NCBI RefSeq assembly: GCF_001983935.1
Contig: NZ_CP017641.1
Location: 3,906,001-3,970,000 of the forward strand
DNA from: Fuerstiella marisgermanici
GTDB taxonomy: Bacteria; Planctomycetota; Planctomycetia; Planctomycetales; Planctomycetaceae
DNA: 64,000 nt
Direction of reading: 5' to 3'
Below are positions 60,986-61,795 of the stretch, one piece after another (positions within the stretch are counted from its first letter, which is position 1; every line of letters begins with the position of its first letter). The position numbers were made by a program, and so were the translations under genes. The notes beneath the pieces were generated by a model, which did no database searches, was not told where the DNA came from, and worked only from the letters and a program-made list of their open reading frames with translations.

Positions 60986-61795
60986 TCAATCCAGGAACGC
61001 CACGTTCCTCATGGCTCGTGATTCGTTCTCGGTGTTCATCACAACTCTGTGCCAGCCCTGCAAAGTGATGGTCGCATGGTCGGGATGACGAACTCGTCCC
61101 CGAACATACACGCCGGGATTCCGACGCATTGTTCTCCATCTCCAGTTCTTCGCATGACTGTTGCCTGACAGTATCTTCCGATACTGGCTCTCGGTCACAC
61201 CATTTGGATGACGACCACATACATGGACGGTTTCACCACCGGTTCGGTAGCAGAATTCCGCCCAATGCGGTTTGCCTCCGTTTCCACGACTTAACGGCTC
61301 ATTCGTCAGAACCAGTGATTCCTCGACGGCCATGTGTGCTTCAGGAAGGAAAAACCATTCGCCCTGCCGAATGAACGCAGCGTTCCTGCGTCGATTGCGA
61401 GACTTCCCGGACACACGCTTTCGAGCGACAGCACTTCGAACTTCGACTGGCTGAAGTGCTTCCATCGCTTGCCGAACTGTACCGACCGGAGCCGACTCAG
61501 GAATTCCTGCAACAAACCAGTGCCGCTCGTCATGACCGCAAAGATACTTGTTCTTCGCTCCGTCTTCACGAACAAGCAGCAGCAAGTGTCGATCCGCAGG
61601 CTGTACATCAAGCACATCAACTTCAGGGTCAGCCCCACGTTGCGGCATGATCTCGAAGAACTCGCCTCGACGATCTTCACCAATGTCGAGCGTCAGCAGT
61701 CCTGCTGTCGTTCCACGCCGTTGTCGAGGACGATCCACGATCTTCAGCCGTGCGCCAATGCGTTCAAACTTCTTGTTGAGGAATAAAGTGTCCAT
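60986..61795 (-). CDS. unknown 269-aa protein upstream of the Y RNA/Ro60 cluster
   Basis: MDTLFLNKKFERIGARLKIV opens a basic protein. Visible features are a beta-rich N-terminal half (LLLLVREDGAKNKYLCGHDERHW split by turns), a Lys/Arg-rich centre (KRVSGKSRNRRRNAAF) and a C-terminal half with HVCGRHPNGVTESQYRKIL and RRNPGVYVRGRVRHPDHATI. Strong basicity suggests nucleic acid binding. I recognise no family. Its stop lies six bases before RNA element 1, so it is probably a partner or processing factor of the Ro60 RNP; this is inference. Confidence 0.75.
   Translation of the reverse strand: MDTLFLNKKFERIGARLKIVDRPRQRRGTTAGLLTLDIGEDRRGEFFEIMPQRGADPEVDVLDVQPADRHLLLLVREDGAKNKYLCGHDERHWFVAGIPESAPVGTVRQAMEALQPVEVRSAVARKRVSGKSRNRRRNAAFIRQGEWFFLPEAHMAVEESLVLTNEPLSRGNGGKPHWAEFCYRTGGETVHVCGRHPNGVTESQYRKILSGNSHAKNWRWRTMRRNPGVYVRGRVRHPDHATITLQGWHRVVMNTENESRAMRNVAFLD

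Follow-up and report, generated by a model that had tools for sequence, protein, structure and literature searches.

The window analysed here is the whole 64,000-nucleotide stretch of Fuerstiella marisgermanici DNA presented above. On its minus strand, a gene for a basic protein is followed in order by Y RNA 1, Y RNA 2, a degenerate Y-like RNA 3, Ro60 and a minimal Y-like RNA 4 (Table 1). Ro60 here denotes a relative of the Ro60 autoantigen. The flanks encode a SUFU-domain protein (57833-58456), a DUF6933 protein (62607-63116) and an SMI1/KNR4 (SUKH) protein (63138-63953). SUFU and SUKH types are often viewed as immunity-like proteins.

Table 1. Features of the protein, Y RNA and Ro60 locus, listed 5' to 3' along the minus strand (positions are those of the window).
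Feature	Position	Strand	Description	z
Basic protein ORF, 269 aa	60986..61795	-	unannotated family resident in tRNA arrays	
Y RNA 1	60834..60980	-	Ro-type terminal stem, anticodon-like arm, T arm, acceptor hairpin, D arm, then T6	-3.5
Y RNA 2	60691..60833	-	anatomy as Y RNA 1; acceptor hairpin GGUCUGAGC/GCUCGGACG; ends in T4	-2.6
Y-like RNA 3, degenerate	60580..60668	-	Y-type 5' and 3' strands, T arm; T8 tail	+1.0 (against shuffles; not better than these)
Ro60/Rsr, 641 aa	58651..60576	-	TROVE domain (PF05731, E 4e-16)	
Candidate Y RNA 4, minimal	58526..58598	-	terminal stem and GGUGCAGGCUUGGGUUACUUC motif, without tRNA-like module	-2.2

The tRNA-like module of Y RNA 1 is permuted, running from an anticodon-like arm through a T arm and a closed acceptor hairpin to a D arm, and its anatomy matches that given for bacterial Y RNAs in the available part of PMC8394870. 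The T arm of Y RNA 2 is missed by a free fold of the single copy and recovered by alignment. Across 21 aligned copies the structure is kept, and 15 of its 21 pairs carry compensatory changes; a descriptor of the T, acceptor and D elements recovers this module in related loci. A reading made earlier from the sequence only had described a Y RNA array. This holds for Y RNAs 1 and 2, which are well formed and display the YrlA-type combination of a terminal stem and a T/acceptor/D module beside Ro60, but the third RNA is degenerate, lacking most of the module with its acceptor hairpin and D arm, and the fourth, lying 3' of Ro60, has no module at all. An element resembling Y RNA 4 is also found 3' of the Ro60 remnant in L028, the closest Ro60-linked relative of the window locus. 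There (L028 2003-2812), only the C-terminal third of Ro60 remains, preceded by a second Y RNA that is itself truncated, possibly through an assembly error.

The protein gene is the 5' neighbour of Y RNA 1. It is a real gene, as the sequence-only reading held, with full-length relatives at 49-86% identity and a dN/dS of 0.05-0.08 against close relatives, indicating purifying selection. Its stop codon ends at 60986, about 5 nt short of the terminal stem of Y RNA 1, which starts at 60980. The same reading saw no room for a separate promoter. This does not establish co-transcription, since a promoter could lie within the ORF; a scan for promoter consensus sequences found none there, which is weak evidence in a planctomycete. 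The protein is basic (pI 10.2; 45 K/R against 32 D/E), as is the family (median pI also 10.2), and most bacterial members have a centre of the same type, at the same position, as the R/K-rich one singled out at first sight (residues 133-137). Conservation across 165 members falls on D89, A110, L114, the R143-Q-G-E-W-F-F149 motif, H177, G233, H237, H240, N254 and D269. The last of these is the final residue of the protein, and Asp occupies this place in 159 of 165 members, against a background rate of 12%; at least two of the six exceptions are incomplete (L034 lies at a contig end and L033 is split over two frames). The invariant D89, RQGEWFF, H177, H237 and H240, together with the C-terminal Asp, suggest an active site.

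The first impression that the protein belongs to no known family was borne out in Pfam, NCBIfam and PHROGs, none of which matches the window protein. When 44 family members were searched against Pfam, matches were common to one or two members only, one of them S1/CSD-like (E 0.008). No nuclease domain (HNH, GIY-YIG or LAGLIDADG) was found by Pfam in these 44 or in six distant phage members, and sequence profiles of the PDB matched neither close nor distant members. Plasmid and named-phage collections queried with the window protein gave no relatives, and BFVD yielded a single phage match, A0A410TCG2 (E 2e-5), which carries no name. AlphaFold predicts a confident model of the window protein (pLDDT 89.8, pTM 0.83) whose best PDB matches are poor (Foldseek E 0.74; VIA Z 3.5), a missing match that does not prove a new fold. 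A distant phage member is also modelled well (pLDDT 86), again with no believable PDB match (best Foldseek E 0.07; best VIA Z 2.9). PURA and profilin-like hits from Foldseek and VIA with the two models covered small fragments and were discarded. Two phage families of unknown function, phrog_29643 and phrog_7247, have the RQGEWFF region in common with the protein family; both are matched by the distant relatives L171, L163 and L184 (E to 7e-16), only weakly by the divergent bacterial members L017-L019 (E 2e-4 or worse), and not by the window protein itself. Because no RNA-binding or catalytic family and no solved fold matches, the case for RNA binding and enzymology is drawn from genomic context and conservation.

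Scanning GTDB genomes yielded 133 bacterial relatives, of which 80 were kept and used for locus counts. These belong mostly to Planctomycetota, with some Acidobacteria and single MAGs of Verrucomicrobia, Riflebacteria and Chloracidobacterium. Among 392 sampled planctomycete genomes, 21 carry the gene. In IMG/VR, 78 viral loci on contigs of up to 527 kb encode relatives with up to 50% identity over the full length, and more distant ones come from Gordonia and Microbacterium phages, including a copy in phage OneUp with no annotated tRNA nearby. In the protein tree, branches from phages are found both close to the midpoint root and among those of bacteria, with six changes between phage and bacterium, and proximity to a tRNA array changes at least 21 times.

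tRNA genes are frequent neighbours of this gene. With tRNA genes called by ARAGORN, the gene is found inside arrays of up to 42 tRNAs per bacterial locus and 46 per viral locus. At least three same-strand tRNAs are present at 19 of the 80 bacterial loci, and at 11 of the 34 that have full flanks. Nearby tRNAs share the strand of the gene almost throughout, at 348 same to 7 opposite in bacteria and 487 to 11 on viral contigs, and in many genomes the gene lies tens to hundreds of bases from the tRNAs of the array. A phage NAMPT gene served as control: at least three tRNAs accompany 34 of 78 viral loci of the family and 19 of the 30 closest ones, compared with 5 of 40 NAMPT loci (Fisher p 8e-4 and 1e-5), two of these carrying the protein gene themselves. 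By this comparison the family lies in or beside tRNA arrays more often than the control gene does, although the window locus itself has Y RNAs in place of tRNAs. At 51 of the 80 bacterial loci, the flanks covered, many of which are short, show neither an array nor Ro60 or a Y RNA; at least one of the three is present at 16 of the 34 loci with full flanks. Ranked within each locus by distance to tRNAs, the gene fares only mildly better than other ORFs (mean rank 0.38) because the ORFs of an array all lie near tRNAs. In the family of the window organism, genomes that carry the gene and those that lack it cannot be told apart by their total tRNA counts; only in family f2 do carriers have more tRNA genes.

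Planctomycete arrays hold the gene in a fixed slot, '... Val Thr Ala Ser Arg [gene] His Trp Thr Arg Arg Arg Cys' or part of this order (L059, L076, L077, L078, L083, L084, L089, L091, L100, L104, L197 and L198). Where Ro60 and Y RNAs are part of such an array, as in L078, they lie 3' of the last tRNA. Other genes in or beside the arrays encode RtcB (four proteins, at 4 of the 80 loci), a PF09414 RNA ligase, SPFH/Band 7 proteins and HNH proteins. The SPFH/Band 7 gene recurs in several planctomycetes by the protein or its array, in L083 (9211-10170), L085 (6168-7733), L089 (6857-7801) and L067 (12089-13027). Near the protein gene, tmRNA genes are found in L041 (4395-4813, immediately downstream and convergent), L047 (4301-4665) and L091 (8743-9100), and ARAGORN also calls tmRNAs in the phage arrays L118 and L140. 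Elsewhere in the window genome lie two small tRNA arrays, one of 10 tRNAs (L191, G000:C1:5958001-5977000) and one of six (L192, G000:C1:5742001-5757000); neither holds the protein gene, and several of their tRNAs score low.

These arrays resemble the tRNA array units or gene clusters of bacteria, archaea and phages described in the available parts of PMC5966550, PMC6333295 and PMC6409571, with their dense same-strand tRNAs and embedded ORFs, and a tie of TROVE genes to tRNA clusters has been described before, the available part of PMC6333295 counting them in 20 of 29 archaeal clusters. The protein is not mentioned in those parts of the three papers, and could appear unnamed in the supplement of PMC6333295. 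Compared with the described arrays, those of planctomycetes and jumbo phages add the protein, which in planctomycetes occupies its fixed slot and is sometimes joined by permuted Y RNAs and RtcB. The Salmonella rsr-yrlBA-rtcBA operon and the Deinococcus Rsr-Y RNA-PNPase machine likewise combine Ro60 with adjacent Y RNAs that contain a tRNA-like domain (available parts of PMC7790460 and PMC8394870), and RtcB of the Salmonella RNA repair operon also occurs near the protein in some relatives. However, the same parts of these papers name no counterpart of the protein, which is often found away from Ro60. Some jumbo phages carry TROVE proteins and RNA repair genes, and their Ro60 lies in tRNA-rich genomes, as here (available part of PMC7824862). 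That part does not name the protein family, which could appear unnamed in the supplement; in the present set, the protein and Ro60 share 5 of 78 phage loci.

Residence in an array could also reflect the accessory character of such regions. The protein may be a phage-derived anti-defence or regulatory factor that rides in tRNA-holding accessory regions and acts on something other than RNA, as the position of phage lineages at the base of the bacterial ones and interspersed among them, the distant relatives in Gordonia and Microbacterium phages and the OneUp copy would allow. Against a target of this kind, which is considered unlikely, stand the shared strand and close spacing of the gene and its tRNAs, a tRNA enrichment above that of the phage control gene and co-occurrence with Ro60, Y RNA and RtcB.

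The sequence-only reading had suggested that the protein might be a third component of the Ro60 RNP or a factor that processes Y RNA. A link to Ro60 and its Y RNAs does exist and exceeds chance. The gene stops a few nucleotides 5' of Y RNA 1, with Ro60 to follow, both in the window, where Ro60 is full length, and in L028, where the spacing is nearly the same and Ro60 is a remnant. In the acidobacterial loci L066, L070, L071 and L072, the Ro60 frame starts within about 4 nt of the stop of the gene or overlaps it. Ro60 is in reach at 15 of the 80 bacterial loci, always on the same strand, while TROVE matches occur in 32 of the 392 planctomycete genomes; the two genes occur together in 8 of these genomes against 1.7 expected (Fisher p 8e-5, a value that ignores kinship). 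Yet the commoner partner is the tRNA array, and Ro60 is out of reach of 65 of the 80 bacterial and 73 of the 78 viral relatives. Twelve of the 80 bacterial loci have a tRNA array with neither Ro60 nor Y RNA, any TROVE match is present in just 8 of the 21 gene-carrying genomes and thus not in most carriers, and two genomes (G238 and G377) hold both genes in distant places. The tree requires at least 15 changes in proximity to Ro60, and in the window's own clade, which is mostly solo, Ro60 is present only in the window and L028; L026, at 86% identity, is without it.

The converse search gave the same picture. Among the best 80 of 323 confirmed IMG/VR TROVE loci from one scan (L239-L318), 40 have at least three tRNAs within 10 kb, whereas the protein gene lies within that distance in one and is missing from 79. 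So the gene and Ro60 join tRNA arrays largely independently of each other. Homologues thus occur mostly away from Ro60, the outcome that the sequence-only reading had itself named as counting against its proposal. A dedicated part in the Ro60 particle or in Y RNA processing is therefore improbable, and what endures of the proposal is a likely RNA-related role, probably on RNAs of tRNA shape.

A selfish mobility factor, such as a homing-type endonuclease spreading with tRNA arrays, would suit the sporadic distribution among planctomycetes, the presence in phages, the embedding between tRNA genes, the solo copies, for which no conserved neighbours were found, and the HNH endonucleases of the same arrays and of mycobacterial ones (available part of PMC5966550), but is very doubtful for a protein that matches no HNH or other nuclease family, keeps a constant slot in many genomes, is under purifying selection and is conserved as far as its terminal Asp.

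The reading preferred here, to which a probability of roughly 0.5 is given, is that the protein acts on RNA, probably as an enzyme, and belongs to tRNA arrays in planctomycetes, some other bacteria and large phages; its targets would be RNAs of tRNA fold, among them the tRNA-like domain of Y RNAs. We infer RNA binding from the basic protein and its context, and catalysis from the invariant D/E/H/R set and the free C-terminal carboxylate. The protein would bind the array tRNAs and the tRNA-like domain of the Y RNAs through this fold, with a putative site formed by D89, R143/E146, H177, H237, H240 and its own C-terminal Asp. It would process, repair or protect such RNAs, for example against tRNA-cutting nucleases in phage infection or conflict. 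Y RNAs mimic tRNA, so the tRNA fold is what the neighbours of the gene have in common, which favours a role of this kind.

On the simplest reading, the window locus looks like a reduced array. The lineage would have lost the tRNAs that lay between the gene and the Y RNAs, and, with local tRNAs absent in the window genome, the gene now abuts Y RNAs and Ro60. A bolder and tentative version holds that the protein represents a novel enzyme family and fold, with a free C-terminal Asp in its active site, that matures, repairs or protects the array-encoded tRNA-fold RNAs of giant phages and bacteria and was joined to Ro60 and Y RNAs in the lineage of the window.

The protein is an uncharacterised component of an already known kind of RNA island. 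As a conserved, unannotated marker of many arrays, it offers a handle on why large tRNA arrays, frequently accompanied by Ro60, Y RNAs and RNA ligases, are retained in bacteria and phages. Its near-universal terminal Asp and RQGEWFF motif are clear targets for point mutation, and the order of genes around it ties the tRNA-like module of Y RNAs to genuine tRNA arrays.
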